From Pelagomonas calceolata (Eukaryota; Sar; Pelagophyceae; Pelagomonadales; Pelagomonadaceae): a stretch of DNA of 64,000 bases. The first letter of the stretch is position 1, and each line of letters begins with the position of its first letter. The notes below the pieces were generated by a model. That model saw only the letters and a program-made list of their open reading frames with translations, ran no database searches and was not told where the DNA came from. The stretch lies in the NCBI GenBank assembly GCA_918797485.1, contig CAKKNE010000002.1, positions 1,578,501 to 1,642,500 on the forward strand, given 5' to 3'. Below, piece by piece: positions 1 through 62,461 of this stretch. The position numbers were made by a program, and so were the translations under genes.

Positions 1-428
1 CGGCGCGACGGACGCCCCGCGTACCACACGCCGCGCAGGGGGTGACTCGGACCTTGGCCGGGGGGTCTCCGCCGGGCCGCGCAGCGCGGCTCGGAGACTC
101 CTCTCGGGCGGAGGAGACGCCGCCGCCCGACGCCGCGCGCCGCTCCCGGGACGCGCGCGCGGCCAGAGCCGTCCCGGCGCGGGAACCAGAACATGCAGGG
201 GTCGCGCCGATGCGTGCGAAACCGGGCCGGCCGCTGCTAGCCGGCACGTGCGCCGGGGCCCTGCCGCCGGGGCTTGTTTTTGGGGCTTGTTTTTGGCAGC
301 GCCAATCCTTTGCCAGCTGCTCCAGAGGGCGGCCCCGCACCTGTTTGCCCGTCGTTTCCACGCCCGCGGTGTGAGCGCTGAGCTGCCCTTGCTGGCTAAA
401 CCCCTGCCCTCGCCCGTGGCCGGGGGCC
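1..428. other. Left-edge region without a supported gene
   Basis: GC-rich sequence upstream of the first gene. Open frames here have biased composition, no recognisable domain and overlap one another, so I call no gene. The 3' end should contain the promoter and 5' UTR of the FEA1-like gene. I see no TATA box. Confidence 0.4.
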
Positions 429-2113
429 ATGCGGTTCCTCGTTCCCGTGGCTGCCCTCTTCGGCGGCGCTGCCGCGCAAATTGGGCGCGTCACCAGCGTC
501 CGAATTCCGTGCGCCTTGGCCCCACCCCACGCCCCTCCCCCCGCAGCTCGCACCAGATGCTCGCCGGCTACCAGTCGGCCTCGGACGTCGGGCCGCACTC
601 GATGATCGACCTCGACATGGAGGAGCTTGAAACTAAGGTGGGCGAGTACGCCACCAACGCAAACTGGATCACCGAGGCCATGTTCATCTACGAGAACGGC
701 GGCGGCGGCTTGTGTTCGCAGGCCGACGTCGACGCGGCGATGACCTCGGACACGACGCCCTGGTGCACGGACACGACTCAGGCCTTCGGCAACTCCCAGA
801 AGTCCACCTCGATCCGCACGCTCAAGGGCTTCGCGACGAAGAACTACGCTTCGGACAAACTCACCGGCGCGGATGGTGGGAATTACGGCGAGCGGATGCC
901 CCCGATCTACGCCGGCTACTGGAACGACTGGGCGTGGGCAGACACGTTCATCACGAAGGACTACTCCGCGACAGTCAAACCCTCTGGGTGGAACCAGCTC
1001 ATCAAGAAGGGCGCCAACTACCAGGCGGTCTGGATGTACGTCCTCCACGAGCTTGAGGACGCAATCGGCGACTGCTACGCCGGCGACATCTACGCCAACG
1101 ACGGGACCCCGACCGGCGGCGCGCCGCACGCGTGGGACGAGGGCTGGGCGTTCTACGCCGGCTCTCAGGTCGCGGCGACGGCGGCCGGCGCCGTCACGGA
1201 CGACGGTACGCTGATCTGGGAGCTCGCGGAGAAGCGCGGCAAGGGTTTCGACACCACACACTCCACCGGCCCCGCCACGGTGAACGTCAAGCTCCTCGCC
1301 AAATTCATTGAGGGCCGCGACCTCATCATTGCCGGCAAGTGCGCCGAAGCCGAGTCCCTCGTCGACCCGATCCGCGCTCAGATGACGGTGCCGCTCGTCC
1401 AGGGCACGCTCAATTACGCGTTGAAAGCGGCGGACCCGGCCAACGCCATTAGCGCTTGCGTCGTCGACGCCGGCAAGAACGCCATGACCGCCAGCGACGA
1501 TTGCGTCGAGTCGTGGGCCGATGCCTGGGCCTTCGCCGCGGCCGTGCTCCCGCAGGTCGCCGAGTGCGACTGGGGAGCCGCCGAGACGATCAGGTATAAC
1601 TTAGACATCGAAGCGGCGGCGCCGGTGCAAGGGGGCTTCTACAGCGTCAAGTCGGCGATCGAGTCGACGTACCGGTGCCTGGGCATCACGTGCGCCGACG
1701 TCGGCGCTTACCCGGGCACCATGCCCTGCAGTGAACCCGACGACGATGACGACGACGACGACGACGACGACCTCCTCGACGGCGGCCTAAGGGAGGTCAT
1801 GTCCCTGGCGCCCATGGGCCTCGCGGCGATCGGACTTACGTTCACCGGTATTAGCATCGCTGCGATCGCGAATGCGTTCCAGGAACAGTGCGCCCTGGGC
1901 CCCACGATCATCTTCGAGGCCGGAACCACACATCCCTACTACATCACCCCGAACCTGTGCACGATCGGCGCCCACACGTACTCGTCCAAGAAGACTGTGC
2001 GCGACGCGTCGCCGCGCAAGGTGTGCCGCAAGTTCTGCGAAGCGGCGTCCGCTTCTGGGAAGCTGGCGCTCAAGCAGGTGCACGGCCTGACGTGTTACTG
2101 CAAGAGGAAATGA
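429..2113 (+). CDS. FEA1-like secreted, membrane-anchored protein
   Basis: Proposed exons are 429-497 and 557-2113, giving 541 residues. Exon 1 begins MRFLVPVAALFGGAAAQ, a good signal peptide. The 59-nt intron is inferred because the long downstream frame lacks a signal and a pyrimidine-rich tract precedes the acceptor. The body holds motifs YWNDWAWADTF, VLHELEDAIGDC and AWDEGWAFYAGS. I associate these with the algal FEA1/low-iron-inducible family, whose members bind or assimilate iron at the cell surface; this rests on memory of the family. A run of 11 aspartates then precedes a hydrophobic helix (about MGLAAIGLTFTGISIAAIA) and a Cys-rich tail ending HGLTCYCKRK, so the protein is probably anchored with the main domain outside. 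An alternative in-frame start at 248 would give no clean signal peptide. Family assignment is moderate; secretion is better supported. Confidence 0.6.
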
Positions 2114-31061: not shown

Positions 31062-31384
31062 GCTGCCCGACGGCTGCCCTCTACGGCGCCTGGCGCAGCG
31101 CGGCTCTGAGCGTGCGATCCCCGCACGTTTTTCGTATCTCTCCGCGACGCGGGCTCCTACTAGCCATGCTATGGCCCGAACGAATGCTGGTGCGGAGCTG
31201 TGAAAGCCGGAAACCCGCGGACTGCCGGCAAGCTTAAAGCGCTGGGAGAGCTGCTCCGAGAGCAGGTACGAGCTTGTAGAGCTAAAAGCTCGCATAGCTG
31301 CCCGACGGTGCTCGTTTGCGCCAAAAAGTCGGGCTTGAGCTCGGGCTGCCCGACTGGTTGAGCTCGGGCTGCCCAACAGCCAAG
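31062..31384. promoter_or_regulatory. Divergent promoter, membrane protein / LRR-kinase
   Basis: About 320 bp with GCTGCCC elements adjacent to both starts (about 31062-31082, 31298, 31348, 31369). No complete GCTAG motif; CTACTAGCC at about 31147 is only part of one. Confidence 0.5.
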
Positions 31385-34300
31385 ATGGTGGTCTGCTCGA
31401 GCTGCGCCGAGCTCTTGTACCCGCCCGGCGCCAAGTTCTGTGCCTGGTGCGGCACCGCAGCTCCCCAGTGGGCGGGCTCCTTGGCGGAGGATAGAGAGGC
31501 GCTGCGAGCGCTGCGCGAGGTCGACGCCGCGATCGACGAAGTGCTCGAGAACTCCCAAGTGAACCTGAAGGTTGCCATCGACCACGACTTTATTGATCAG
31601 AGCAACGACTGGGCCGGGATCGCGACGCTCGTGGTGCCGCCCGCGCACGTCGTCCGCGGGGCCACGATCTCCGGGCACTGGTGCGACCAGGGCAGCGGGA
31701 ACCAAAAAGGCCGAGTGCGCTTGGTTCTGCTGCGGGACGGCGCCCTCGTCGCCGATGCGGCAGTCCCAGGCCTCGCCCCGCACGGAAGGGAGTCCTTTTC
31801 CGTCGTGCTTGAAGGTGACGTCATGCTGGCCGGCGACGTGGTCGCGGCGCAGATCATCGTGGGCGGCGGCGGCGGCCACGCGCTCAAGCTGAAGGGCGTG
31901 AAGCTGGTCCTGGACGCGACGCCGACGGAGGCGCTTGCGAAGAGTGGCTACGTGGAGGCGGACGGCCGCGTGACGCAGCTCAGCTTGTACGAATGTGAGA
32001 GCCTCGCGGCGCTGCCGCCCGCGATCTGCGGACTCTTGGCGCTGACGACGCTCAAACTGGAAAAGTGCTCGGGCCTCAGAGCGCTGCCCGACGCCATCTC
32101 CGAGCTTAGCGCGCTGGCCGAGCTCTGCCTGAGCGAGTGCGAAAGCCTCGTCGCGCTCCCAGACGCCATCGGCGAGCTTGGTGCGCTGAAGAGTCTCGAC
32201 CTGTCGTTCTGCCGGAGCCTCGAGGCGCTTCCAGATGCTATCAGTGGCCTAGGCGCGCTGACGACGCTCAACTTGTATCAGTGCGAGAAACTCGTCGCGC
32301 TACCGGACGCGATCGGTGAGCTCGGCGCGTTGACGGAGCTCAAGCTGGATGAGTGCACAAAAATCACAGCGCTACCGGAGACAATTGGCGGGCTCAAGGC
32401 GCTAAAGATGCTCGACATGACCGACTGCTCGCGCCTCACCTCGCTGCCGGCCGCAATCGGCGAGCTTGGCGCGCTAACGAAGCTCGACCTGACCGGGTGC
32501 TCGAGCCTCGCCGCGCTGCCGGCCGCGATTGGCGAGCTCGGCGCGCTGACGGACCTCAACGTGAGTGGCTGCACGAGCCTCGTCGCGCTACCGGACGCGA
32601 TCGGCGAGCTCGGCGCGCTGACGGAGCTCTACTTGAACGGCTGCACGAGTCTTAGCTTCCCGCCGTTGCGCATGCATGAAGACGTTGCGATGGTGAAGCG
32701 CTGCCTCGCGAGCGTCGGGCCGATCGTCGACGGTGCGCTGGCCCTGGAGGACGCGGGAGCCGACGAGCGGGAATTCTTTTTCGCCGACGTCCTCAAGCAT
32801 CCGGCCTACGCAGACCGCCTCGGCGCGCGCGTCCGCAAGGACCCGGCGTTCGCCGACCTCACGAACGACAAGGGCCAGCGCGTCGTCGAGCTCGCGTGCT
32901 TCGAGTGCCGAGCGCAAATGCAAAAGGCCCTCTTCCTCCTCCGGAGGTACGCCGTCGACAAGACGCCGCCGCTGCACTTCTCGGCGACGGCGGCGGTCCT
33001 GGGCGCGACGGACCACGATAAATCCGACGTCAAGCCCCGACGCGCCCTGAAGGCGATGCGACGGGTCGACCAGGTGCTGGCGGAGCTCGAGGGCCGCGCG
33101 GGCCTCGACAGACGGTTCGTGGTCGCCGTCGTCGCCGTGCACGTGAGCGCGACCGTGTCTGCCGTGGACCACGATGAGGTTGCCGCAGCGGCGGGCAAGT
33201 TGGACGGCGTCGTCGTCGAGAGGGCCGAGGGCCTCGGCGAGGACCTGGCGGGTCTGCTCGCGGCGCGCGAGCAGCAGAACGACGCTTCCGCCGGCCGCTT
33301 CATGGGGTACGACTACCTCCTCGTCATGGAGCTCGCCGAGGAGAGCCTGAGCAAGAAAATCATTCACGGCGGCGTCTGCGGCGTCGACCTGGTCGAGATC
33401 CGCAAGATCGCGCGGGAAATGGCAGAGGCCCTGGACCATCTCCATCTGAAGGGCCGGATCCATGCGGACCTCAAGCCGCTGAACGTGGTCCGCGTCGGCA
33501 CAACGTGGCAACTAGTGGATCTTGACGTGTCCTGTGCGATCGGCGATCCCTTTGGCACGAAGAAGCCGTCCCTAGGCTACTGTCCGCCGGAGATGGCTCA
33601 GACCTGTGTGGAAATCAACCAGTGCGTCGGGTGCACCCGACAATTCTTCACTAATTCATTTCTTGGCGACAACGCGGCCGTGCTGGCTCGGTCGAGCGGT
33701 GAGGAACTTGCATCGCTACGCCATCGAGCAGGCGTCGCGTTGATGGCGTGGAGGCCGACGCGACGAGTCAGCACGAACGCGTCGTAAAATTTTGATTTAC
33801 ACACAGGCTCAGACTATCCTCGACGCGATGGATGCCTCAGATCGGCTGGACACGGCCCTACTCAGCGCCTACACCGCGGACAAGGCCTACGACCTCTGGT
33901 CGCTCGGCGTCGTTCTTTTTCATCTTGCCACAGGCACACCCCTGTGGAAGACCGATAAAAATGACGACACGTCCCCGAAAGGCCTGCGCAAGCTGGTCAA
34001 GCGCTGCTTCGACCTCGATCGCAAACTGGCCGTCGCGGCGCCGCGCCCGACGGACGATTTCGATGGTGACCTCCAAATGCTGGCGTTCGACCTCATCCGC
34101 AAGCTTCTGACGCCCGAGCCGGACGAGCGACTCAAGGCCTTCAAGGGGGCCACGCCAATGCGAGGCGTCCTGCAGCACGGCTTCTTTTCCAACGAGCGAG
34201 GCGCGGCCGGGCGGGGAGACGCGGGCCGAGACGACGAGGTGATGAAAGTGTTCGCGGAGGTACGGGCGTCGCAGGCGCAAATCCTTCGGTCGGTCAACGC

Positions 34301-35282
34301 CGTCCGAGACCTGGGCGAAGAACATCGAGACGAGCTCCGGGCGACGGGGAAGTCCCTGCGGAAGGCTATCTTTGAAGCCAGCGAGGTGAAGACACCGACC
34401 GCCTTTGTTGTGCTCAAGGAGAAACTGCCTCCGCTGGAGGAGGACGAGCAGCTACGCGTGAAGGTCAAAGAGGATGGCGAAGTCGTGGCAGGTGGGGCGC
34501 TCCCCGACGAAGTGAACCACCGGGTAAAGCAGGCGAAGGCGTGGCTGAAATTCTGCAGCGAGTGCGTCGAAGGCGTCGCGGAGTGCTCTCCAAAGGCGAT
34601 CGCGGGGGCAGCGAAGGGCGCACCCGAGTGCGTCGAGGACCTTAAGAAAGCCGCCGGAGACCTACTGGTCGGCGAGGAGATGTGGTTCTACCTTATAGAC
34701 GAGCTCACCGGCGAGCCCGTGCGGAGCGCCGGCGGCGTCTACCCCATTCGCATCACCGAGCCCTCGGAGCTCGTCGGAAAACTGCTGCCGGTCATGCAGG
34801 TAGGGCTGCACGCCGCCACTCTCGTGAACGGCGTGTCAGGGGTGGTCCGCCTGTTCGGCTATCCGTTCCCGAGCGTGCCCGAGAAGTTGCGCGAGGGCGC
34901 GGAGCGCTCCGTCGAGGTGCTGAAACAGGAGAGCTCGGTTGAGAAGTTCGGGGCTATCCAAGAGCACGTCGAGACGCAAGACGAGCAGGCCACGAGCGTG
35001 CGCGGCGCGTCGCTCCGGGAGCTGGAGAAGTTCCTAGCAAAAGAGGACCCGCGCGGCACCTACGCCGGGCTCCAGAAAGTCGGCGACGATTCCGACGGCA
35101 CGGCCGTGTGGACGACGCTGACGGACCCCGAGGAGGTACAGGAGGCGCTCAAGACGCGCATAGCGAGTCGGCGCGCCGAGCGGCGTTTCCAGGAGGCGGC
35201 GTCGCTCGGAATGCTCCAGGCGAAGTTCGCGGCGAAGCTGCGCGACGCGGTGCAGGCGATGCGCGCGGAGGACGGTGTGTAA
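31385..35282 (+). CDS. Zinc-ribbon / LRR / protein kinase-like protein
   Basis: Exons 31385-33607 and 33807-35282 give 3,699 nt and 1,232 residues. Residues 4-22 form a CxxC...CxxC zinc ribbon. About ten 24-residue leucine-rich repeats with the pattern LPDAIGELGALTxLxLxxC follow at about 196-427, resembling plant R-protein LRRs. A kinase C-lobe then has IHADLKPLNVV (HRD-type loop, about 693), DLD in place of DFG (about 711), PPE for APE (about 734) and YDLWSLGVVLFHLATGTPLW. The glycine loop and ATP lysine are not obvious, so activity is doubtful but the catalytic Asp is kept. The C-terminal third is helical and unrecognised. A family C introner splits the activation segment. A sensing or scaffold role is inferred from architecture only. 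Confidence 0.75.
33608..33806 (+). mobile_element. Introner family C, copy C3 (perfect 8-bp duplication)
   Basis: The element 33604-33806 begins CTGTGTGGAAATCAA and ends TTGATTTACACACAG. It is flanked on both sides by GCTCAGAC (33596-33603 and 33807-33814). Splicing at CTGT|GTGG and CACAG| keeps frame and leaves 12 extra nt (eight of duplication, four of element) in the message. Confidence 0.92.
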
Positions 35283-43727: not shown

Positions 43728-44675
43728 CTACCACAGGGGCCGCAGCGCGTAGACCTCGGCGTCGTCCACGGAAAAGTCGCCCTCCTCCAAACCGTGCAAA
43801 CGAGGACTCCCAAAGGGCTCGGAAGCGTCCGACCAGCCCGCGGCGAGGTCCGCGTCGATACGAAAAGCGGCGCCGCCCGTCGCCGCATCCAAACCGACCG
43901 CGAGGTAGCTTTGTGTGCGCTTGCAGTTGATGAAGCCGGAGTCGGGGCGCGCAACCAACGGAAACGCCCGCTCGCCGCAAAACAAACCAACGTCGATGCG
44001 CCTCCTCCCATTCACCGTCGGCACCCGTCCTAGAAAGCACCCAAACACCTCACCACAGGCCTCGACGACGACAACAACAGGCGTGCGCCCGTCGAACTTC
44101 TGCAGCGCTCGATCCAAATCGTAGCCGTCCTCGGACGCTTGGTGTATCACCTCGAGCGTCCTTTCATGGAGCGTCTCGGGTACTATGGAAGCAATAGCGG
44201 CTCGTCTTTGAACAGAGGCGAGGAGGCGCCCCTTCGTGATCTGGAGCGGCTCCGGTTCTCGCGAAGGCGGCGGCTCGGAGGCTCTCCGGCCCCGATGTAA
44301 CGGCAATCTTTTAAACTTCGTGCCGTCCACATAAAGCGCCGGCCGGACGCCCCGATATAGTTTTGATTCTACCCTCACATCAAGGGTGTGGGCCCCGGGC
44401 AGCGTTATCGAGTGCGACCGCTTGAAGCCTTGGACTCGTTCGCCGTCGACCGTGAGCGTCCGCTTGCCGCTCCACTTGCTCAGGTCCACAATAACTTCGT
44501 GGAGGCGGCTGCCGATCGCGAAGCTGTACGTGTGCTTCGTCTTCGAGGCGGAGACGCGCTTGCCGACCGAGTCCTGCCTTTTCATCACGGCGCGCGGCGT
44601 CGCGGCGCGCAGCTCGGCGTCCGACGCCACCGCGTCGCTCTTCACCGAGGCGCCGCAGGCGTCCACCAGGTCCAT
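43728..44675 (-). CDS. FAIM-like / TLDc domain protein
   Basis: 315 residues from ATG at 44675. Residues 45-150 show the beta-sandwich pattern of the Fas-apoptosis-inhibitory-molecule fold: HEVIVDLSKWSGKRTLTVDG and a second round ALYVDGTKFKRL. Residues ~195-315 form a TLDc domain: RALQKFDGRTPVVVVVEACG, VFGCFLGRV, FINCKRTQSYLAVG and a closing EEGDFSVDDAEVYAL. TLDc proteins protect against oxidative stress and several bind the V-ATPase. FAIM-like domains are linked to protection from aggregation. The combination suggests a stress-protection protein. The TLDc call is firm; the FAIM part is weaker. Convergent with the membrane-protein gene, 16 bp apart. Confidence 0.75.
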   Translation of the reverse strand: MDLVDACGASVKSDAVASDAELRAATPRAVMKRQDSVGKRVSASKTKHTYSFAIGSRLHEVIVDLSKWSGKRTLTVDGERVQGFKRSHSITLPGAHTLDVRVESKLYRGVRPALYVDGTKFKRLPLHRGRRASEPPPSREPEPLQITKGRLLASVQRRAAIASIVPETLHERTLEVIHQASEDGYDLDRALQKFDGRTPVVVVVEACGEVFGCFLGRVPTVNGRRRIDVGLFCGERAFPLVARPDSGFINCKRTQSYLAVGLDAATGGAAFRIDADLAAGWSDASEPFGSPRLHGLEEGDFSVDDAEVYALRPLW

Positions 44676-45003
44676 AATGCAGCCTGATTTGCTCTCCAAG
44701 GTGTACTGGAGTTACTGCACCAAACGAGCTGTCGCAGCGATGAAAACGCAACGTTTCTGGTGCGAAGACGTACTTGGAGCAGCGATTCTTGCCCAATGGG
44801 CAGTGCTACGCCCGCGCGGCGCTTGCTCAGCTCGATTGCTAGTGCCTTACAAGCCCGCTAGCTCTGCCTGTGCCGCCCGCGAGCCGTGCGATGCAACAGA
44901 GGACAAGATCGCACTGTTGTGCATCGCTTACAGCCCCCGTGAAGCATCGTGACTGAGCGCCGAAGTTACAACGCATCACTGCGAGAGCTGCGATTAGCAC
45001 AGC
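44676..45003. promoter_or_regulatory. Divergent promoter, TLDc gene / Thg1-PAZ fusion
   Basis: About 330 bp. GCTAG motif copy 6 lies centrally, about 160 bp from the TLDc start and 140 bp from the fusion-gene start, so both genes could share it. Confidence 0.55.
44838..44862 (-). promoter_or_regulatory. GCTAG inverted-repeat promoter motif, copy 6
   Basis: Reads GCTAGTGCCTTAC then AAGCCCGCTAGC on the plus strand, with full inverted GCTAG ends. Confidence 0.65.
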
Positions 45004-47421
45004 ATGCCCGGCGTTCAGAGGGACGCGGGCGCGTGGGACAAATCCGACGCGGGAACCGACAGCGATACTGACAGCAGCGACGGCCGCGTCGTACGCGTGA
45101 ACATGGGCGACGCCAGCGACGACGAGGCAACGCCGGACGAGTACCGCTGGCTCGGCGACGAGCACGAGGACCTCGGCCGGGTTGATTCCGTGCCGGCTCG
45201 GCTCGACGGGATCGGCTGGACCGACGACGCCTTCCGCGCGGCGGCACTGCATGGCGAAGGCGACAGCAAGTTCCACGAGGTGCTGGGCCGCGCGGCGGAG
45301 GCCTCGCGGAGCTTGGACCCCTACGACCCGACGTGCCGGAGCTTCTACGTCCGCGTCGACGGCGTCGGTTTCACGAACTGGTCGAAGACGCACGGAATAG
45401 CGAAGCCGTACGACGGCGCCGTCCACGGCGCCTTCGTGAGCGCGGCGGCCGCGACGATGCGCCACTTCAGACAAAAGGGCCTGGGCGTCGTCGCCGCGTA
45501 CACGCAGAGCGACGAGGTCACGTTCCTGTGCGCGGGCCCGGCGGTGCTCGCGGGCGGCGCGTCGGACCCCAGTAGGCGGCTCCTCACGCTCTTCACGAGC
45601 GTCTTCTCGAAGCGCTTCGAGCAGGCGCTGCGCGCGACGAAGCCCGAGGCCGCCGCCGAGGCCTTCTTCGAGGCGCGCGTCGTTGCCGCGGCGACGCGGT
45701 CCGCCGGCATCCTGGCGCTGATCTGGCGCCGCCTCGACGCCACGCGCAACGCCTCGTCGCAGGCGCTGCGGCACCTGCACGGCGTCCGTGTCCAGCAGGA
45801 GCTCCCGCCCGTCGACGAGGCGCTGCTCGCCGACCTCACGGCCGGGGGCGTCCCCGAGATGCGCGCGCGGAGGGCCCTGATGGCGGGGAGCGCGACCGCG
45901 GACGCCGCTCGAGCCTGGCTCCGGAGCCACGCGGAGGGCATTGATGACCCGATCGAGATGATCGGCCGCCCCCACGCGCGGCAGCGGCTCTTGTTAGCGG
46001 AATGTGGCACGCCGTGGGACACGCTGCCGCCGGCGCTTCGGTACGGGACTTTACTCTTCGCCGGCGACGACCGCGGCCGCCACGTTCGGTTACGTGTGCC
46101 GCGCACGCGCGACGAGGCCGAGGCGCTTGAGCGCGCCATCTTCGACGAGCAGTCCTGGGACACTCTTGGCGACGCGCATCCGGAGGCGCCGGCCGCGGCC
46201 GCGGCGGGCCCGGCACGCGGCAGGCCCGTGCCAGCGGCGCGCCCGGCCCCAGCCGCGCCGGTTATTGGACCGGCGCCCCCCGCTGGCTTTGTCCGCGTCG
46301 ACCGGGGCTGTCCGGCCCTCGACCGAGAAGGCCGCGACGACCGGTGGTGCGACGCGGTGGAAACAAACCCGAGCCAGAACGCGTGGGGCCGCCTCGCCGA
46401 GCGCGTCGCCAACGAGTTCGCCGGCGTGCTGCTCTGGGCGAAACCGGTCCAGCCGGCAAGATCCGGCGATCCGTCGGCGGGTTGGCGCGTGGCGGTCCTG
46501 CGCCTCGAGCGCGTCGAGCCTGCCGGACCCACGCTCACGTTCGCCGTCGAGGGCGCGGGGTTCATCAGTCAACAGAAGGCGGCGAAACACGCGGCGGCGG
46601 CATCAGTGGCGCCCCTCCTCGACGCGGCGCTCGCCGCGGACCGGGCGAACGACGTGACGACCGCGCGGCAACGCGCGCGGCCGCTGAGCATCCTCGAGCG
46701 GCTGTCGCAGGCCCGCAGCTGGCCGGCGCCGGAACCTTCGGGAAGCGACGCGGTCACGTGGGGGCCCGAAGGCGCCGTGGCGCGCGCGCCAAGGTGCGCC
46801 AAGGGCGGCGGCGACAAGCTACAGCTCGCCGCGCTCGTCGCGCTGCGCTCGCTCGACCTGGACGCCGTCGCCGCGGCCCCGGTAGCACCCGCACCGCCGC
46901 CGCCGCCGCGCCCGCAAGAACAGTCGGTACCGCCACCGGCGCCCAGCGCGGCCGGCGGCCGCGTCCTCGACCTCGCGATCGCGATCTGCGGCGATACAAA
47001 CGCCGGTCGGCGGCGGGACCGAGGCGGCCGCGAGATGACGCGGGAAGAAGTCGACCAGCTCAAGAAACGCGTCGAGGGCCGGCGGGTGGCATGGGGTTCT
47101 CCGGGCAACACGTCGAGCGGCGTTGTCGAAGATGTTACTCTCATCGGCGCGGACTCGCTCAAGTTGTCTGGATTTTCCGGTCTGGACGTGACGGTGGCGA
47201 CCTACTACCGCCTCCAGGGCGACGGCGAGAAATGGGGCGTCCGCGCGGCCGTGAAGCACCTCGGCCACGACGACGACCGCGTCGCCGAGCTCCGGGCGGC
47301 CCTCGTCCGGCGGAAGCCGCTGGAGTACCAGTCCTTCCCGTGCCTCGTCGTGCGGCAGTCGCGGAAACAAAAAGTGCCGGACAACGTGCCCGTCGAGCTC
47401 GCGTCGCTCGTCGGCGCCTAG
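45004..47421 (+). CDS. Thg1-type 3'-5' polymerase fused to dsRNA-binding and PAZ-like domains
   Basis: One exon of 805 residues. Residues ~100-355 match tRNA-His guanylyltransferase (Thg1): FYVRVDGVGFTNWSKTHG (metal Asp in VDGVGF, about 118-123), AAYTQSDEVTF (metal pair in SDE, 169-171), IWRRLDATRN, and a closing LLLAECGTPW...ALRYGTLLF. A UBA-like helical insert lies at about 272-310. Residues ~455-541 resemble a dsRNA-binding domain, ending GFISQQKAAKHAAAASVAPL. Residues ~675-805 have the PAZ pattern: LKKRVEGRRVAW, then VTVATYYRL, then YQSFPCLVV and VPVELASLV. Thg1 enzymes add nucleotides to RNA 5' ends; PAZ binds small-RNA 3' ends. A role in small-RNA processing is inferred. It lies 2.3 kb from an Argonaute gene. 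Confidence 0.75.
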   Translation: MPGVQRDAGAWDKSDAGTDSDTDSSDGRVVRVNMGDASDDEATPDEYRWLGDEHEDLGRVDSVPARLDGIGWTDDAFRAAALHGEGDSKFHEVLGRAAEASRSLDPYDPTCRSFYVRVDGVGFTNWSKTHGIAKPYDGAVHGAFVSAAAATMRHFRQKGLGVVAAYTQSDEVTFLCAGPAVLAGGASDPSRRLLTLFTSVFSKRFEQALRATKPEAAAEAFFEARVVAAATRSAGILALIWRRLDATRNASSQALRHLHGVRVQQELPPVDEALLADLTAGGVPEMRARRALMAGSATADAARAWLRSHAEGIDDPIEMIGRPHARQRLLLAECGTPWDTLPPALRYGTLLFAGDDRGRHVRLRVPRTRDEAEALERAIFDEQSWDTLGDAHPEAPAAAAAGPARGRPVPAARPAPAAPVIGPAPPAGFVRVDRGCPALDREGRDDRWCDAVETNPSQNAWGRLAERVANEFAGVLLWAKPVQPARSGDPSAGWRVAVLRLERVEPAGPTLTFAVEGAGFISQQKAAKHAAAASVAPLLDAALAADRANDVTTARQRARPLSILERLSQARSWPAPEPSGSDAVTWGPEGAVARAPRCAKGGGDKLQLAALVALRSLDLDAVAAAPVAPAPPPPPRPQEQSVPPPAPSAAGGRVLDLAIAICGDTNAGRRRDRGGREMTREEVDQLKKRVEGRRVAWGSPGNTSSGVVEDVTLIGADSLKLSGFSGLDVTVATYYRLQGDGEKWGVRAAVKHLGHDDDRVAELRAALVRRKPLEYQSFPCLVVRQSRKQKVPDNVPVELASLVGA

Positions 47422-47453: not shown

Positions 47454-49629
47454 CTAGGAATACTTATTCGGCGACGTAAATGAGGGAGGCGCGTGGAAGG
47501 ACTCCTTGAAGGCCACATATCTCGATAAGTCCGAAGCCAGCGCGCTTTCGTCTCGCAACTCCGCCTCGGACTTCGCGTTGTTGTAGTCGACGCACGCTTG
47601 CGCGACGACGCGTTCACACAACCTTTCCAGATAATGCGATGCCATGGCGTCGTCCATGGTGCACAAGACGGGCAACCGTCCTTGATGGGTCGTCTTCGCG
47701 CCGCCGCCGCCCCGAACCTTGGCTAGGAACGTTATGGTAAATTCGTCGCCACGTCTCTGCGTCTCGACTTCCACTTCTAAAGGTAGATTCGGCTTCCCAC
47801 TCGCATCACAAGCCTTCAGGTCGTCTCTCCTTACTAAATGGCGGGCCTCTCCCGCTTTACTGACGGGCACGGGCTCGCTCTTTTTGAGGGGAAACCGCCC
47901 GACCGTGTAGGGCGTGTCGTAGTCGCGGTCCAGGAAGTCGCGGTCGATGATCGGCTCGGGCAGCGGCGTCACGGGTCTCGTATTGGGCGTCCGCACCCTT
48001 CTAGGTTCCGCACCTGGTTGATCGTAGTCTGAATCGTCTTCGTCAAATCCTGTGTGGGAACGACACCGTCACGAAACTGTCTCCGTTCACTCACGAGGCG
48101 CGTAGACGCCCATGCGGTCGCATCGACGGCGTCACGGTGGCATCGCATCGCGTTGACGCCATCGACGCGAAGTTCAAGTTGAGAAATTGAAGGAAACAGA
48201 CGCTGAGTCAGCACCATCGTCCCCATAATTCTCGTCGGGGTGGAAGCCGTCGTCGCCCCTCACCTCCGAGGCCGTACCTCGTCCTCTACCAACCGTCGTG
48301 CCCGGCCTTCCTTCGTGAAAGCGTTTTTTCGGTTTTGTGGTTCCGGGCCGCGCCGCGGGACCCTCAAAATCAAAACCCGCGGGCATCTCGAAGTCGTCGT
48401 CGGCGTACTCGTCTTCACTTTCTGTTTCTCCTTTCAGTCTAGCCTTCATCTTGGCCAGTCGTCGCGTCTTGCCCGAGGCCAATGCAGCTAAATCGCGATC
48501 CCTCTGCACCAACCGATGCTTCGCTCTTTCCACGGCTAACCGGACCTTCGCTTCTCTCTCCGGAGTCGTCCGGGCTCTTCGTTTACACCACGCGTCCCTC
48601 GCCCTCGATATTTCCGACATCGACGGCTCCGGTTCCAAGGCAGCGCACTTCGACTTTTGGTCGAGCAGCGAAAAGTCCTTCATGTGCCGCTTCAGGAACA
48701 CCAACTGGTCCATGCGATCCTTGTCCCACTGCTTCGACGAGTAGCAGGGGTTGAGCTTCCGGAGCCGTTCGGCGTGGTACGCGTTCGCCGCGTTGATGCG
48801 CCGTTGTTCTCTTTTCGCGCCGATGATGTTCTTACTATTCGAGATCTTGTGTTCCACCGCCGCCACTTCAAATTCGGTGGGCGTCGAAATAATGCTAGCG
48901 AACCTTTTTATCAACCCGACGTTCGCGCTCCGGATCTCCCTTTGTCTTTCGTTGTGGGCGGCCTTCTTCTTGGCCCCGTAGGTTTTGGAACCAAATCTCA
49001 GGTGTTCGTGCGTCGCCGAGTAGGGGAGCCTGCGCGGAGCATTTCTGTCAAGAATGGCCTCAAAGTCGAAAAAGAAACGACCCACGACCTCGTCTCATGG
49101 ACACGAGTCACATCAACAAAGTGAAGGCGCCTCCACACCTCAAAACGCGGAGATCGCACGTGTGGTCCGTGCCCTTCTTGTCGGAGCCCGGTTTGCGATG
49201 CGCGGTCTGCTCGAGCGTCTTTCGGTGTTTGCTGTAGAGTCGGTTCGAGGCCTGGACCCTCCCATCGATGCGCATGACGGGCTTCGGCGCCTTGAGGAGC
49301 TTCTCGTACTGGTCCCGCACGGACGTCGGGCGCTCCTTGGCGGCGGCGCCCATGGTGGCTGGCTGCCCGCGCGGGCGGTCCGTGGGCTTGGCGTGGGCCT
49401 CGGCGCGGGCTTCGGGCACCCGCGGGCAGCCGGTGCTTGGCTCCTGGTGCGGCTGTGCTGCGGCTTTTGGCGCGGCGTTGAGAGCGCCTCCACTGCCTCC
49501 GCTAGAGGGGCGCCGTCGTCGGAAGGATGCCTGCCCTTGCCGAGGGATGTCCTCGCTCTCGACGGGTCCGCGGGGAAGCCTGATACCGACAAAACCCCGC
49601 ACGTCGACCGCGCGCGGCCGGCCTGACAT
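47454..49629 (-). CDS. CFAP97/Hemingway-like basic coiled protein, two introners
   Basis: Exons 49629-49160, 49029-48215 and 48049-47454 give 1,881 nt and 626 residues. The region around the first junction reads YEKLLKAPKPVMRIDGRVQA, RLYSKHRKTLEQ and, after splicing, KKAAHNERQREIRSANVGLI. This order (tyrosine-containing basic helix, then KK, then an ER..I...N..L helix) recalls the CFAP97 family of ciliary proteins. The call is tentative. The rest is charged and disordered, with a beta-rich C-terminus (DEFTITFLAKVRGGG). The first 80 or so residues are low complexity, so a later Met (MGAAAKERPTS) is possible as the start. The promoter must overlap the 3' end of the Argonaute gene 79 bp upstream. 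Confidence 0.6.
48050..48214 (-). mobile_element. Introner family B, copy B5
   Basis: A 165-nt intron, GTGCTGACTCAGCGTC...TCCCACACAG, in phase 1, joining ENYGDDG|FDEDDSD. Confidence 0.88.
49030..49159 (-). mobile_element. Introner family A, copy A11
   Basis: A 130-nt intron, GTGCGATCTCCGCG...TGCTCCGCGCAG, in phase 2, joining KGTDHT|LPYSATHE. It is a short form close to A8. Confidence 0.88.
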
Positions 49630-49708: not shown

Positions 49709-52700
49709 TCACATGAACGGGAGCTTGCCGTCCAATAGGGCGGGGTGGAACGGGAAGTCGTCGCCGACCCCCGGCGCCTCCTCACCGTTCTTGATGACCA
49801 GGCGCTTCGCGTCGCAGACCAGCGACGCCATGTAGGAGAGGGCGGGCAGCTTGACCGCGCGGTTGGCCTTCGGGTAGGCGTACGCGAGCGCCGCGACGAT
49901 GCTCATGAGGACGTCGGGCGGGCACTGGGCCTCGTTGAGGATGACGCGGCAGTGCTGCAGGTTGTTGCAGCCCTGGATCCCGGCGTACGTGTTCACGAAG
50001 AACTCGTGCGCCGTCGGGTGCGTCAGGCCCGAGTCGACGAAGAGCGACGGCGGCACGTTCATGGAGCGGTCGTTGTCGGTGCCCGACTCGCGGCTCGGGA
50101 AGACGCGGACCCGGCTCTTGGTCATCGGGCAGTAGGTCAGATGCACCTCGCCGTCGAAATGCGCGGACGCTTTCTCGCGGATCCGACGCTTGATCGCCGC
50201 CGGCTCGAGCTCCAGCATCCGGCGATGGTCCTCGCCCGCGAACGCGCCCGTGCGGAACGCGACGACGAGCTGCGGTGGACCATTAATTTCTGCGAACTGG
50301 CTTAGCACGTCGCAGACGGCGAGGCCGATCACATCCGCGAGGTGCTCGTCCAGGCGCGCGTCCAGGGGCGCGACGCGCGACGCGAACCGGAACTGCGACA
50401 TGAGTTTGTCGACGGTGCAGGCCGCCGTGACCATCGAGGGGATCGCCGAGTCGTAGGCGCCGGCGAGCGTGACGTGCACGGCGACGAGGGCCGTCGGCGC
50501 CGCGCCCGTCCACGGGTGGAAGTCCACCGGCGGCTCGCCGTTCGGCCTCGCGGACTCCGCGGAGACGACGGCCCGGTTCACGCCGCCGAACTTGGCGTTG
50601 ATCTTGGCGGCGATCGCGCGGACGATGTCCCGGTACCGCGCTGATCCCGCCGTCTTCAGCGACTCGACGGTGACGCACGACGTCATGACGCCCGTCTGGT
50701 GCTGGAACCGCTTGATCACACCGTAGTCGTTCTCGCTCAGGGACGCCTGGGTTTTCTTGATGACGGCCAGTACGAGGTCCGGCTTGGCGACGCCGCAGCG
50801 CTGGCAGGCTCCATACACCTCGTGGGTCACGTCGCCAACAGAGGAATCCGGCCGGACGACCGCCACCAACACCGGGCCGGGGCCGCCCCGCCCCGACGGG
50901 TCGAACGGGTCGCCGAGCTGGATGTCGATGTCCCTGCACGCGCGGCGGAGTTCGTCCACGTAGTTCCTGACGGCGTCGGGCGACGCGCGGCCGCCGCCCA
51001 TGTCGAGGACCAGGACGTTCCGGTGCTCGGGCGCCGCGACGCGGAAGACCTGGTTCTCTTGTCTCCACTCGCCGAGCTTGTGCCCCCCGAGCTGGAGGAC
51101 GCGTCCTCGGTTCCGCGCGAAGAGAAGCGGCGCCGGAAAAATCTTGGCGACGACGGCGAGCGATCGCGGCGCGAGCTGGAGCCCGATCGCCGCGAGGGCC
51201 GGCGACGACGTGATGCGGCTCCGCGCGACGTGGTCGACGATCTGCCCGTGTCGCGCGGAAGGCCGCACGGAGAGCAACCTGATGATTTCGTCGGCCATGT
51301 TGATGCCGCGCGCGTGCTGGCCCTCCTCGAGCCGCAGGCGCTCGGCCGGGATGTAGATGACCTTCTCGATCTTCTTGCCGTCAGCGTCGCGCTTGGGCTG
51401 GCGCCGCTTAAGGCCGTCCTCGCCCATGACCTCTACGTACTCGAGGCCCGCGTCGATGCGGATGACGGGGTGGTGCGGAAACCGTAACGGGTGGCCCTTG
51501 CGCTCCTGGTACGTGGCGATGGAGATGGTCTCGCCGTTGCGCTCGAAGGTCATGTCGCTGGCCGACGTGGCGACGAGGCGGCCCTTGTCCTTGAAGTTCT
51601 TGCGCGAGATCTCCGCGAACTCGTCGGCCCCGCCGAAGTCCTTCCGCAGGATCGTGACGTTCTTGCGGTGCAGCAGCTGCTTGAGCTTCTCTACGTCTTT
51701 CGGCGAGCGCGGGCCCCGCTCGCCGAAGAGCGCGATGATCAGGTCCGCGACGGTGGAGAGAGCGCCCGGCGTGCGCACCGCTGCCTTCGCCACGAGGTCG
51801 ACCGCGAGGCACATGCCCGCCTCGCAGTTGCGCACCCCCACGTCGACGCCGAGGAGGATGTCCAGGCCGCCCTCCCGGCAGCGCACCGGCTCGCCCTGGA
51901 CCAGGTACGTGCCGCTGCCGAGGTCCCAGTACCCGTTCTGCGTCATGTGCGCCTTGATCGCGAGGTCGATGATGGTCGAGAAGTGGTGCCGCTCGCCCGT
52001 GCAGGCGTCCACGAGCTCGCCGCTCGCCGTCCGCGCCACGTCGACGGCGGTGCTCCGGAGCGCCTCGGCCACGTCGATGGTGGTGGCCGCCTGCAGCTGC
52101 ACGCGCCACCGGCGCCACGGCTTGCCGGCCACGGGCGCGACCACGACGCCCGACGCGGACATGTGCGGCTCGAGCCGCCCGCACGCGTAGAGCATCCGCG
52201 CGCCGTCCGAGAAGACCTGGACGCGCGCCTGTTCGCCCACGGCGCGCATCGCCTCGAGCGTCCGCCGCTTCTGCGTCTCGGAGGGCTTGCGCGTGCCATC
52301 GGCGAGGACCTCCTCGGGCCGGGCGCCCGCGCCCGCGGGCGCGGCGACCACCGGGGGCGGGGGCGCCGGCGCGGCGTCCGGCGCGGCCGGCGCGGCGTCG
52401 CCGTCGGCCACGAACTCCTTCTTCAGGTGCCGGACGTGATAAACCCAGATCGTGTCCGTGGCGGCGCCGGGCGCCGGTACGAGGCGCCAGACGTTCGTAG
52501 CCACCGGCGCTTCTCTATAAGGCACCCCCAAAGACGGACCCCGCGGCTCGATCCATCCGCCGCCGACGGTGAGCGCCGAGAGTCGATCTTCGAGCGACCC
52601 GCCCGGCTCCACCGTGGACAGCTGCCGCTCCTCCGTGCCGACAATATCGTGGTTGTCGATCGGTATCAGCTCGCCTCGACCGCGGCCGCGGCCTCCACCG

Positions 52701-52813
52701 CCGCGGCCTCCGCCGCGGCCTCCTCGGCCGCGGCCGTCGAACGGGCGCCGCCCGCCGCCGTAACCGCCGCCGCCCTCGTGCGGCCGGCGCCTGCCGCCGG
52801 CGCCGCCGTACAT
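49709..52813 (-). CDS. AGO: Argonaute-family protein with degenerate slicer site
   Basis: One exon of 1,034 residues. An RGG-rich lead (GGRGGGRGGGGRGRGRG, about 30-47) precedes N and PAZ domains; the PAZ end reads ISIATYQERKGHPLRFP...KVIYIPAERLRLEEGQ (about 430-498). The MID domain has NDYGVIKRFQHQTGVMTSCV (about 695-714) and AAKINAKFGGVN. The PIWI domain keeps its frame (IPSMVTAACTVD, YAGIQGCNNLQH). The catalytic tetrad appears lost: the GADVTHP site is AVHVTLA (His near 780), the YRDG site is FRTG (Thr near 855), and HYHV is HCRV (Arg near 956). It should bind guide RNA but probably cannot cleave targets. It lies downstream of GCTAG motif copy 7, with no introns. Confidence 0.88.
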   Translation of the reverse strand: MYGGAGGRRRPHEGGGGYGGGRRPFDGRGRGGRGGGRGGGGRGRGRGELIPIDNHDIVGTEERQLSTVEPGGSLEDRLSALTVGGGWIEPRGPSLGVPYREAPVATNVWRLVPAPGAATDTIWVYHVRHLKKEFVADGDAAPAAPDAAPAPPPPVVAAPAGAGARPEEVLADGTRKPSETQKRRTLEAMRAVGEQARVQVFSDGARMLYACGRLEPHMSASGVVVAPVAGKPWRRWRVQLQAATTIDVAEALRSTAVDVARTASGELVDACTGERHHFSTIIDLAIKAHMTQNGYWDLGSGTYLVQGEPVRCREGGLDILLGVDVGVRNCEAGMCLAVDLVAKAAVRTPGALSTVADLIIALFGERGPRSPKDVEKLKQLLHRKNVTILRKDFGGADEFAEISRKNFKDKGRLVATSASDMTFERNGETISIATYQERKGHPLRFPHHPVIRIDAGLEYVEVMGEDGLKRRQPKRDADGKKIEKVIYIPAERLRLEEGQHARGINMADEIIRLLSVRPSARHGQIVDHVARSRITSSPALAAIGLQLAPRSLAVVAKIFPAPLLFARNRGRVLQLGGHKLGEWRQENQVFRVAAPEHRNVLVLDMGGGRASPDAVRNYVDELRRACRDIDIQLGDPFDPSGRGGPGPVLVAVVRPDSSVGDVTHEVYGACQRCGVAKPDLVLAVIKKTQASLSENDYGVIKRFQHQTGVMTSCVTVESLKTAGSARYRDIVRAIAAKINAKFGGVNRAVVSAESARPNGEPPVDFHPWTGAAPTALVAVHVTLAGAYDSAIPSMVTAACTVDKLMSQFRFASRVAPLDARLDEHLADVIGLAVCDVLSQFAEINGPPQLVVAFRTGAFAGEDHRRMLELEPAAIKRRIREKASAHFDGEVHLTYCPMTKSRVRVFPSRESGTDNDRSMNVPPSLFVDSGLTHPTAHEFFVNTYAGIQGCNNLQHCRVILNEAQCPPDVLMSIVAALAYAYPKANRAVKLPALSYMASLVCDAKRLVIKNGEEAPGVGDDFPFHPALLDGKLPFM

Positions 52814-58337: not shown

Positions 58338-58719
58338 CTGGGCAGCCGTGCGCCGCGATGGCTCGGCGCGAGGACTCCTGTGGGGCGTGGGCAGCCCTGC
58401 GGCGCGCGGGGCAGCCCTTGGCCCGGCCAAAGGTCGATGCGGCGCTGCCAACCACTTCGGCTGTGGGCCCGGGGGTGGAAGGAAGGCTCGGGAGGCCCGA
58501 GCCAGCGGGTCGGGAGGGCGGTGAGCGCTCGGAGCGGCGCGGAAGGGGCTGGGGGGAGAGCGGAAAAATTAATTAAAATCCCGGTCGATCGAGCGGCGCG
58601 TGGCGGCCAGTGGCGGAAGTCCATCAAGGTTGCTTCGGTATGTAGGGTGGTTTTTGTAAAAACCGGGTAGATGAGGTTGGCGCGCTCGTGGGAGCGGCCG
58701 AAGTCAGCAAGCGAGGCGC
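58338..58719. promoter_or_regulatory. Promoter of the basic coiled gene and H2A 3' UTR
   Basis: About 380 bp. GGGCAGCC occurs at about 58390 and 58408, within 75 bp upstream of the minus-strand ATG. The histone stem-loop of H2A lies at 58649-58664. Confidence 0.55.
58649..58664 (-). terminator. Histone 3' stem-loop (H2A)
   Basis: On the minus strand GGTTTT-TACA-AAAACC forms a 6-bp stem with a 4-nt loop, followed by ACCCT, starting about 55 nt after the H2A stop. Size, GG...CC ends, distance and the downstream ACC match the replication-dependent histone stem-loop. Confidence 0.72.
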
Positions 58720-59109
58720 TTACTTCTTGGAGGCCGACTTCTTCGGGAGAAGCGTGGCGTGGATGTTCGGGAGAACACCGCCGGACGCGATCGTGACCGA
58801 GCCCAGGAGCTTGTTGAGCTCCTCGTCGTTGCGGACGGCGAGCTGGATGTGGCGCGGCACGATGCGCGTCTTCTTGTTGTCGCGCGCGGCGTTGCCCGCG
58901 AGCTCGAGGATCTCGGCGCAGAGGTACTCGAGGACGGCGCCCATGTAGACACCGGCACCGACGCCGACGCGCGAGGCGTACTTGCCCTTGCGGAGGTAGC
59001 GGTTGAGGCGCGCCACCGGGAACTGGAGGCCAGCCTTGGACGCCGAGGACGACGAGCCGGAGGACTTGGCCTTGCCCTTGCCGCGGCCACCTTTACCTTT
59101 GCCAGACAT
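58720..59109 (-). CDS. H2A: Histone H2A
   Basis: 129 residues from [15 protein letters not shown]. It has the histone fold with [20 protein letters not shown], the acidic-patch helix [32 protein letters not shown] and [15 protein letters not shown]. The tail ends KKSASKK and lacks the SQ(E/D)-phi motif of H2A.X; the docking region is canonical rather than H2A.Z. The in-frame extension upstream of this Met lies in the promoter and is discarded. It is divergently paired with H2B and has a 3' stem-loop, so it is probably expressed in S phase without polyadenylation. Intronless, as usual for such histones. Confidence 0.95.
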
Positions 59110-59373
59110 GATGTTTTGGGGGTGTTTTTTTTCCGATGTGTTGGAGTGGAGAGGCAGCCCGCTGGAGCGCACACATTTCCGGGGCGTCAGCGCGCCGCTA
59201 ATTTTTGGCGACGAATCATTTTGCGACCCCAATTAGCGGCTCGCTCACGCCCCGAAATGTCACAATTTCATTCGTCGCCAAAAGTTAGCGGCTCGCCTGC
59301 GCCCCGGAAATTCGAGCAGCACATCGGGCTGCCTCCCCCAGTCCAACACATCGGAAACAAAAACACCACAAAA
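59110..59373. promoter_or_regulatory. Bidirectional H2A/H2B promoter with long inverted symmetry
   Basis: 264 bp. Reading outward to inward, both sides share TCCGATGTGTTGGA, GGAGGCAGCCCG (with small changes), ATTTCCGGGGCG, GCCGCTAA and TTTTGGCGACGAAT, so about 85 bp on each arm are inverted copies. A further half-copy (TTAGCGGCTCG, CGCCCCGAAATG) lies near the centre. Confidence 0.8.
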
Positions 59374-59724
59374 ATGGCCAAGACCCCCTCCAAGAAGTCG
59401 GCGAAAGCCCCCAAGAAGGCCGGCGGCGCCAAGAAGAAGAAGTCGCGCACGGAGTCGTACTCGACGTACATCTACCGCGTGCTCAAGCAGGTGCACCCGG
59501 ACACGGGCATCTCCAAGAAGGGCATGTCGATCATGAACTCGTTCATCAACGACATCTTCGAGCGCATCGCCCTCGAGGCCTCCAAGCTGTGCCGCTTCTC
59601 CAAGAAGGCGACGCTCTCGTCCCGCGAGATCCAGACGTCCGTCCGCCTCATGCTCCCGGGCGAGCTCTCCAAGCACGCCGTGTCCGAGGGCACCAAGGCC
59701 GTCACCAAGTTCTCGAGCTCGTAA
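59374..59724 (+). CDS. H2B: Histone H2B
   Basis: 116 residues from [18 protein letters not shown]. The Lys-rich tail is followed by the H2B fold: [60 protein letters not shown] and the closing [15 protein letters not shown] with the ubiquitin-acceptor lysine in VTKF. It pairs with H2A from a shared promoter and has its own 3' stem-loop. Intronless. Confidence 0.96.
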
Positions 59725-60809: not shown

Positions 60810-62124
60810 CTACTTCACCTGACACGCGGCGCGCAGCGCATCAGAAAACGTCGCCGCGTCCCACTGTCCGAGTTGCCGCAGCAGCCGTTTGGCGGGCTCG
60901 GCACTCACCAACTTGTACGGGTCCGGATCCAGCCTAAAATGGTGCGCCGCATTCAATATAGTTTGGCAGTTCCGCGCGCGAATTAGGACATACAACGCGT
61001 CGATCTCACAACGTTGCAGGGGACAAACACTATGATATGCTGCCGTAATCGCACAAGCTCGCTGTAGAATCAACATGGTCTCGGCCGGGTCCAGCACCGA
61101 ATCGGCCAACAGTGAAGTCATGCTTGACCCTTTCCCGTCGAAGAGCGCGTAAGCCAGCAAAATGGCCAGATCAAACACGCGACAGCTCCGCACGAAGTCC
61201 CCGAAGTCCACGAGACCCGGCCTGACACCAGCTTCGTCGACCTGTGTTGATTGATACCGTCGCGAAACTGCCGCTGCTCTCTCGCGAGACGCGTGGACTC
61301 TCATGTGGTCATGAAGACGGCGTCGACGCAGCGAGGCACCGCGGCGACGCCGTCGACGCAACTTGAAGTTCGGAAACGTTCGGAAATCACGCTGCGTCGC
61401 GGACCAGGATGTTCTCGTCGTTCGCGTCCCCATGAATTAATTGGCGAGGCAACAACGCGTACGGCGGCGACGCGAGGAAGGCGTCGAACGCATCCAAAGC
61501 TTTCGTGACTCTCTCCTTGACCTCGTCGTCGAACAATTCGTTGAGATAAGGTCTTGACACTGTTGAAACGTTCGCGAGGTCCCAAGCAAGCATCCTCTCG
61601 GAAGAGTCGGCTCCATCACTACGCGGTTCAAAGTGCTCCAATGCGACATCAGTTGCGCCCATGACCTGGCCCAGGGCCCGGTCCAAAGCGCCATTCGCCT
61701 GGCCCCGACACTCGCTCAGTGGAATACCCTCGACCCACGTAATGACGCGCGCGAAACACGTCAGGGACTTCCAGGTGAACTGGACCACGGCCTCACCATG
61801 ATCAGACGCGCGGACGTCCGGCGCCCGGACGCCCGTCGTCCGCACGGCGCGCATCATCGTGTGTTCACAGTCCAAGGCCGCCCTCGTCGCGTCGTCGCCC
61901 GCATGGCCCCTACAAGCGGCGCCACTGGCAGCGATTTTGAGGACGTATGTTTTATCTATCGCTTCTTGTGAGCATTGGACTATCACTTTCCAGTTTTGGT
62001 CGTCATAAGACGGTAACGGTAGGCAGCGGCGGACGGCGCCGACTTTGGCGTAGTGGTCCTTCATTAATTGAGTGGCTTCGGCTGGCGTGAGGAGGGGGCG
62101 GACCTCTTCCGTGAAGGTGGCCAT
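60810..62124 (-). CDS. Hydroxylysine kinase-like (APH-fold) enzyme
   Basis: Exons 62124-61405 and 61241-60810 give 1,152 nt and 383 residues. It has the aminoglycoside-phosphotransferase fold: N-lobe LPSYDDQNWKVIV and YVLKIAASG (ATP lysine), catalytic loop LIHGDANDENILV, and metal site GLVDFGDF. The SYDDQN and HGDxNDxNIL wording is that of the AGPHD1/HYKK group, which phosphorylates 5-hydroxy-L-lysine using GTP in lysine or collagen catabolism. The substrate in an alga is uncertain. A family B introner lies between the HGD and DFGD motifs (phase 0, NIL|VDEAGVRPGLVDFGDF), so both catalytic motifs meet only after splicing. Some choline kinases share the fold. Confidence 0.8.
61242..61404 (-). 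mobile_element. Introner family B, copy B6
   Basis: A 163-nt intron, GTCCGCGACGCAGCGTG...TCAACACAG, in phase 0. Its left end is the most diverged of the family (GACGCAG for GACTCAG). Confidence 0.85.
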
Positions 62125-62461
62125 GGCGCTCGCGTTTGTTGGCAGCTTAAATCTCTGAGAGCGCTCTCGGAGGCTGTGCGGCACGAGGACGCCTGAGCTC
62201 TCTCGCAGCCAGAGAATGGTAAGTCAGCTTGCAAATGCAGGCGCACGCAAGTCTGCGGTGCCGTAGAGCGGCAGCTATAGCGACAACAAAGCTGCTCCCG
62301 GCCCCGGCTTAAAGTACGGGTTCCACCACCTCGTACACGCGTCCACGTGGTCCCTGGTGGCGCAGAGTCGCCGAACGGCATCCCAGACGCGAGAAGGACG
62401 GGTCCTTCTGTGCTAGTGTCTTTACAGGGACGCTAGCTAATTTTGCATGATACCGGCAACC
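62125..62461. promoter_or_regulatory. Divergent promoter, hydroxylysine kinase-like / LHC gene
   Basis: About 340 bp with GCTAG motif copy 9 about 26 bp before the proposed LHC start and about 290 bp from the kinase start. Confidence 0.5.
62412..62436 (-). promoter_or_regulatory. GCTAG inverted-repeat promoter motif, copy 9
   Basis: Reads GCTAGTGTCTTTAC then AGGGACGCTAGC on the plus strand. Confidence 0.62.

Follow-up and report, generated by a model that had tools for sequence, protein, structure and literature searches.

Within a 64,000-nucleotide stretch of the Pelagomonas calceolata genome (the window), we analysed an open reading frame (ORF) of 805 amino acids (aa) on the plus strand (45004..47421), which appears to join a Thg1-type 3'-5' RNA polymerase, a UBA-like domain, a possible double-stranded-RNA-binding domain (dsRBD) and a probable C-terminal PAZ domain, and which lies close to a divergent Argonaute gene. 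An earlier note on this DNA had described the frame as a Thg1-type polymerase fused to dsRBD-like and PAZ-like domains, and its start codon, stop codon and 805 open codons agreed with our reading. The motifs it quoted were all recovered from the translation, namely VRVDGVGF (aa 116-123), QSDE (168-171), RYGTLLF (346-352), VATYYRL (731-737), LEYQSFPCL (773-781) and VPVELASL (795-802), together with the end sequence taken as dsRBD-like, QQKAAKHAAAASV. The UBA-like domain within the Thg1 part and the nearby Argonaute gene had both been overlooked.

The ORF is real, with a coding-type composition in frame up to its stop: the ORF listing gives 805 codons in a single frame, from an ATG at 45004 to a stop codon at 47419-47421. 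Across 300-base intervals inside the ORF, the G+C content at third codon positions (GC3) was 0.80-0.98, including 0.87 in the last interval (47104-47403), and the content at second positions (GC2) was the lowest of the three in every interval. Because GC3 remained high and GC2 lowest throughout, the C-terminal half can be considered as coding in the same frame as the Thg1 half. The frame opens with an acidic N-terminal tail (aa 1-89; 45004..45270, plus strand), delineated from its sequence.

Membership of the N-terminal part in the Thg1 superfamily is firm on sequence grounds, in line with the polymerase assignment of the earlier note. The Pfam family Thg1 (PF04446) matched the palm domain (aa 113-228; 45340..45687, plus strand) at E 3.3e-17 and 63.1 bits, for a cut-off of 29.2. 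Ten sequence matches were obtained for the whole protein in the PDB at E<=1, comprising six Thg1-family chains, one UBA and three unrelated weak matches, the top one being the Thg1-like protein (TLP) 4kgk (E 3.7e-6). In a phage collection, the matches in all 13 records (several of them GenBank/RefSeq doubles) fell on genes annotated as tRNAHis guanylyltransferase and were confined to the Thg1 part of the protein. Alignment to three of these phage enzymes located the catalytic carboxylates at D119 (VRVDGVGF), D170 and E171 (QSDE), and showed that R117, D119, S169, D170, E171 and R225 are common to all three, and K134 (AKPYD) to two of them. The roles of the carboxylates, activation lysine and serine in the Thg1 superfamily are those given in the excerpted text of PMC6471195.

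Downstream of the palm, the WRRLDATRN block (aa 241-249; 45724..45750, plus strand), placed by alignments to the phage Thg1 proteins and 4kgk, resembles the WRxxDAxxN block of Thg1-like proteins, 4kgk reading IWRQQDASKN at this place. The region continues as DATRNASS, as in 4kgk and the phage enzymes, and because this DATRN block is of the 4kgk kind, we filed the Thg1 part as TLP-like. According to the excerpts of PMC6471195, an activation asparagine (N161 in ScThg1) marks the bona fide Thg1 enzymes that add G-1 to tRNAHis and is absent in TLPs. Of the Thg1 fold, the C-terminal half is only weakly recognisable: aa 325-352 (ARQRLLLAECGTPWDTLPPALRYGTLLF; 45976..46059, plus strand), considered as the end of the Thg1 part, aligned weakly to Thg1 5xox as a second local alignment of the PDB sequence search.

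Between WRRLDATRN and RYGTLLF lies a UBA-like domain (aa 271-311; 45814..45936, plus strand), matched by PF22562 at E 1.3e-6 and 28.7 bits (cut-off 27) when a 66-aa piece was searched, and at E 1.5e-4 and 22.1 bits, below the cut-off, when the whole protein was used. The UBA-domain entry 2dai also matched the protein in the PDB sequence search (E 6e-4). In this protein, 44 more residues separate the two stretches aligned to 5xox (aa 246 to 325, versus 154 to 189), which corresponds to about one UBA; the domain therefore looks inserted into the Thg1 fold. Our literature search for Thg1 together with a UBA domain found none. This apparent insertion may couple the enzyme to ubiquitin.

At the other end of the protein, aa 684-803 (47053..47412, plus strand) very probably form a PAZ domain, which stops two residues before the stop codon. 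In the native sequence, the VTVATYYRL strand block lies too far upstream of LEYQSFPCL. When the 31 residues in between (aa 739-769; 47218..47310, plus strand) were left out, the PAZ profile matched from positions 18 to 103 at E 6.3e-6 and 26.6 bits, while all nine controls with a shuffled first half of this insert-less construct stayed at 11.6-12.6 bits (E 0.13-0.27). Deletions of 31 aa starting from 736 or 742 also restored the match (1.8e-5 or 3.4e-5, respectively). Searched against the PDB at E<=10, the insert-less construct returned seven matches, every one of them an Argonaute chain of 123-169 aa (8thq, 6ra4, 1si2, 1t2r, 3mj0, 1vyn and 1r4k; best E 0.23), which we take to be PAZ constructs; the native C-terminus, at the same threshold, returned seven matches and no Argonaute. 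The C-terminus thus shows a kinship to known PAZ domains beyond chance. Of the PAZ-like pattern proposed in the earlier note, this kinship was upheld through the insert-less construct, the native sequence itself remaining under the Pfam cut-off.

The middle of the protein gave a less favourable picture. A dsRBD within aa 455-540 (46366..46623, plus strand) is possible, though somewhat short of an even prospect, the stretch being delineated from the element order of a low-confidence model (mean predicted local distance difference test, pLDDT, 40.6), which reads helix-strand-strand-strand-helix. Scored against a local dsRBD profile, for which 30 dsRBDs of bacterial RNase III had been used, aa 448-545 reached 3.3 bits, a value equalled or exceeded by 10 of 1000 shuffles, and the whole protein -1.0 bits. 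A construct deprived of its loop and six shuffled controls were all without a Pfam match, and the middle segment found nothing relevant in the PDB at E<=10. The dsRBD claimed in the earlier note was consequently not borne out by either the Pfam or the local profile searches. A second dsRBD-like stretch (aa 554-625) was considered and rejected, with no Pfam match and 1.6 bits on the local profile (34 of 1000 shuffles as high).

The Argonaute gene (49709..52813, minus strand) lies 2.3 kb from the Thg1-PAZ gene on the opposite strand, and was identified through its PIWI domain, its alignment to AGO10 and its PAZ pieces. The PIWI domain (about 49808-50734, minus strand) matched PF02171 at E 1.9e-29 and 103.3 bits, against a cut-off of 28.9, and AGO10 from the PDB matched the protein at E 1.3e-24. 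Its PAZ domain (about 51299-51565, minus strand) scored 20-21 bits on pieces and was unreported in the whole-protein scan; one piece matched ARGONAUTE2 (chain 1vyn) at 0.0018. The protein displays a glycine/arginine-rich N-terminus, and its PAZ carries a long insertion ahead of the IYIPAER strand. Since the PAZ of this Argonaute itself scores low, low PAZ scores are to be expected in this genome. In the alignment to AGO10, the position of the first aspartate (GADVTHP) is occupied by H782 and the RDG position by T857, the tetrad histidine being retained; we take these aligned positions, RDG included, to be the catalytic ones, and the AGO10 chain used itself reads RAG at the RDG position. Without the two slicer aspartates, the neighbouring Argonaute is probably not a slicer.

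The Thg1-PAZ and Argonaute genes are separated by two or more candidate ORFs, among them two on the minus strand: 47454-48068, which is convergent and ends 32 bases past the Thg1-PAZ stop, and 48174-49094. A weak CFAP97/Hemingway match below the cut-off (E 4.1e-4), at 48177-49094 (minus strand), would fit a flagellated organism. Upstream, the Thg1-PAZ gene is adjoined by a TLDc-domain ORF (43731-44711, minus strand). Elsewhere in the window, a frame open to the window start (2-2110, plus strand) matched a Fea1-type low-iron-inducible protein, and two overlapping ORFs (31298-33784 and 33744-35279, both plus strand) encode leucine-rich repeats and a protein kinase; because their kinase matches cover successive parts of the profile, they probably constitute one gene with an intron. 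A frame of 349 aa, counted stop to stop (58675-59721, plus strand), carries a core histone fold restricted to aa 226-325, its upstream portion being either a long N-terminal extension or an untranslated frame. Finally, the ORF 61390-62223 (minus strand) matched an APH-type phosphotransferase family (E 2.8e-15). The histone, TLDc, protein kinase and weak CFAP97-like matches mark the DNA as eukaryotic. Scans of the window for tRNA genes and Rfam families gave none, and NCBIfam at E<=1 returned nothing for the Thg1-PAZ protein or the neighbouring Argonaute.

With some confidence, we favour the view of a Thg1-like 3'-5' polymerase that has gained a substrate grip in the form of a C-terminal PAZ, possibly with a dsRNA-binding segment in front of it. 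In such an enzyme, the PAZ would grip a short RNA duplex or stem by its 3' overhang and the middle segment might lie along the duplex, while the Thg1 palm would activate the 5' end and then extend it in the 3'-5' direction with the opposite strand as template, with the result that recessed 5' ends would be repaired or filled in. In the excerpted text of PMC6471195, TLPs are described as activating 5' ends and adding nucleotides opposite a template strand, and Thg1-type RNA synthesis as running opposite to that of all other known polymerases; at least one TLP, TLP4 of Dictyostelium, whose essential function is given as unknown, is reported there to be able to act on RNA other than tRNA. The anchoring of duplex 3' overhangs by PAZ domains is likewise described in the excerpts of PMC7827160. 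We infer an enzymatic activity, its templating and a grip on the duplex, as well as a connection with the neighbouring Argonaute and its small-RNA pathway.

A narrower and rather unlikely version of this proposal would make the protein a small-RNA 5'-end polymerase, anchored by its PAZ and performing templated addition wherever Dicer-type duplexes or Argonaute guides have recessed 5' ends, in conjunction with the apparently slicer-dead Argonaute. The earlier note had proposed a comparable function, holding a small RNA by its 3' end while acting on its 5' end, which would fit the predicted domains and the nearby Argonaute. If true, the enzyme would set the 5' nucleotide, the length or the end shape of small RNAs, and we know of no description of such a step in RNA silencing.

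Several observations weigh against the polymerase-with-PAZ-grip interpretation. The native C-terminus, searched as three overlapping pieces, did have PAZ as its top Pfam match, which speaks for the assignment, but this match was weak (E 0.017-0.067, profile 75-103), at 13.6-15.5 bits, all under the PAZ cut-off of 28.8 bits, and the whole-protein Pfam scan at E<=1 reported no PAZ. The strong score requires an artificial deletion that was picked by eye, and its 26.6 bits still fall below that cut-off. The score also depends on where the deletion is placed: E was 0.0083 from 745 and 0.16 from 733 (a deletion that destroys TYYRL), then 0.044, 0.22, 0.20 and 0.18 from 690, 705, 715 and 725, respectively, with no PAZ match from 752, the deletions from 715, 725 and 752 overlapping the insert in part. 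Compared with the neighbouring Argonaute, the C-terminus aligned no better than its shuffles, 287 of 500 scoring as high against the whole protein and 282 of 500 against the PAZ region, and comparing the Thg1-PAZ protein directly with this Argonaute likewise yielded nothing. The model of the C-terminus, computed without homologues, was too poor for use (mean pLDDT 43.8), and Foldseek retrieved no PAZ among the 50 matches listed for it. The middle segment suffers from the same difficulty, its model without homologues being too poor to use; among the Foldseek matches listed for it there was a single dsRBD, ranked 22nd, whose E of 1.2 lies in the noise, and the dsRBD family PF00035 gave no Pfam match with the native sequence or with the loop left out.

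Other points of the same kind concern the Thg1 part, the locus and the mechanism. Where the three phage enzymes have a common lysine ahead of the LxS stretch, this protein has R192, and no Pfam match covered the C-terminal half of its Thg1 fold whether the UBA was kept or left out (one of the four shuffled controls of the UBA-less version gave a chance PAS match). Relatives were sought with the whole protein in viral and genome contigs, and with the C-terminal piece, the middle piece and the Argonaute in viral contigs; no relative sharing the architecture emerged from these viral or genome contigs, which included no eukaryotic collection. Gene proximity in a eukaryotic genome is moreover weak evidence of a shared pathway. 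Lastly, an overhang locked in the PAZ would be unable to template the fill-in at the same time; because of this tension, the PAZ may instead grip the duplex at its far end or pass the overhang on.

Among the alternatives, a TLP of the tRNA-repair or tRNAHis type carries appreciable weight as a minority option: its PAZ-like domain would hold the single-stranded NCCA 3' end beside the 5' end undergoing extension, with no role in silencing, an explanation that overlaps with the PAZ-grip proposal, which would accommodate small-RNA and tRNA substrates alike. A tRNA acceptor stem likewise places a 3' overhang beside the 5' end, and a tRNA-type substrate with such an overhang suits the domains equally well; the nearest PDB sequence match is moreover a Thg1-like protein, 4kgk. 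The established biological roles of the superfamily, as presented in the excerpts of PMC6471195, also have tRNA as substrate. Yet the excerpted text of PMC7827160 assigns PAZ domains to two families, the Argonaute-type one and Dicer, and the neighbouring gene here is an Argonaute. The acidic N-terminal tail, for its part, seems unlike a mitochondrial presequence, and so counts against mitochondrial tRNA 5'-editing.

The C-terminal domain could otherwise not be a PAZ, or be a PAZ relic devoid of RNA 3'-end binding, serving as a scaffold or protein-binding OB-like fold in an ordinary TLP with long tails. The weak scores of the native sequence, the long insert in the domain and the uninformative models are all in keeping with this explanation, which we nevertheless regard as unlikely in view of the controlled match of the insert-less construct and its exclusively Argonaute matches in the PDB, and of the two strand motifs, which occur in the right order, the protein ending about where a PAZ ends. 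Far less probable still is an annotation artefact, in which two adjacent genes or a phase-preserving intron would yield a long ORF by chance in GC-rich DNA. The local G+C content of about 0.67-0.69 and the long chance ORFs in other frames there would allow it, but the composition was coding-like in every interval within the ORF, no stretch of non-coding appearance separated the two halves, and 30 of the 31 codons of the PAZ insert end in G or C.

The Thg1-PAZ architecture seems undescribed in the literature searched and is represented here by one gene in one eukaryote. A literature search for Thg1 together with a PAZ domain found none, and among the matches listed for tRNAHis guanylyltransferase with Argonaute, no title pointed to such a protein. 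Thg1 was found in 0 of 398 genomes of one bacterial phylum, and the neighbouring Argonaute had no confirmed relative in viral contigs. A protein uniting Thg1 with a PAZ would be a testable candidate for an enzyme that edits the 5' ends of small or double-stranded RNA, and would show that a reverse polymerase can naturally carry a module for holding its substrate. The Argonaute nearby hints that reverse RNA polymerisation may be connected with small-RNA pathways.

Compared with known systems, the protein shares with Thg1-like proteins (4kgk, presumably the Bacillus thuringiensis TLP, and Dictyostelium TLP2-4) the WRxxDAxxN block and a palm that contains the carboxylate triad together with the lysine and serine of the activation step. 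It also seems to lack the HINNLYN-type stretch of tRNAHis-specific Thg1. In contrast to these proteins, it possesses an internal UBA-like domain, a long linker and, at its C-terminus, a probable PAZ, reaching 805 aa where the 4kgk chain has 245. With the PAZ of Argonaute it shares the strand order and residues, TVAtYYR...LeYqsfPCLvV...vPvElasLV here corresponding to TVAqYFK...LrYphlPCLqV...lPlEvcnIV, but it differs by the 31-residue insertion between the strand blocks and by its fusion to a Thg1 polymerase, and no PIWI match was obtained for it in Pfam. Dicer offers a parallel in working principle, without implying membership, with a PAZ, and perhaps a dsRBD, joined to a catalytic domain near the end of an RNA duplex; the Thg1-PAZ protein, for which Pfam reported neither an RNase III nor a helicase, would instead place a 3'-5' polymerase at that position.

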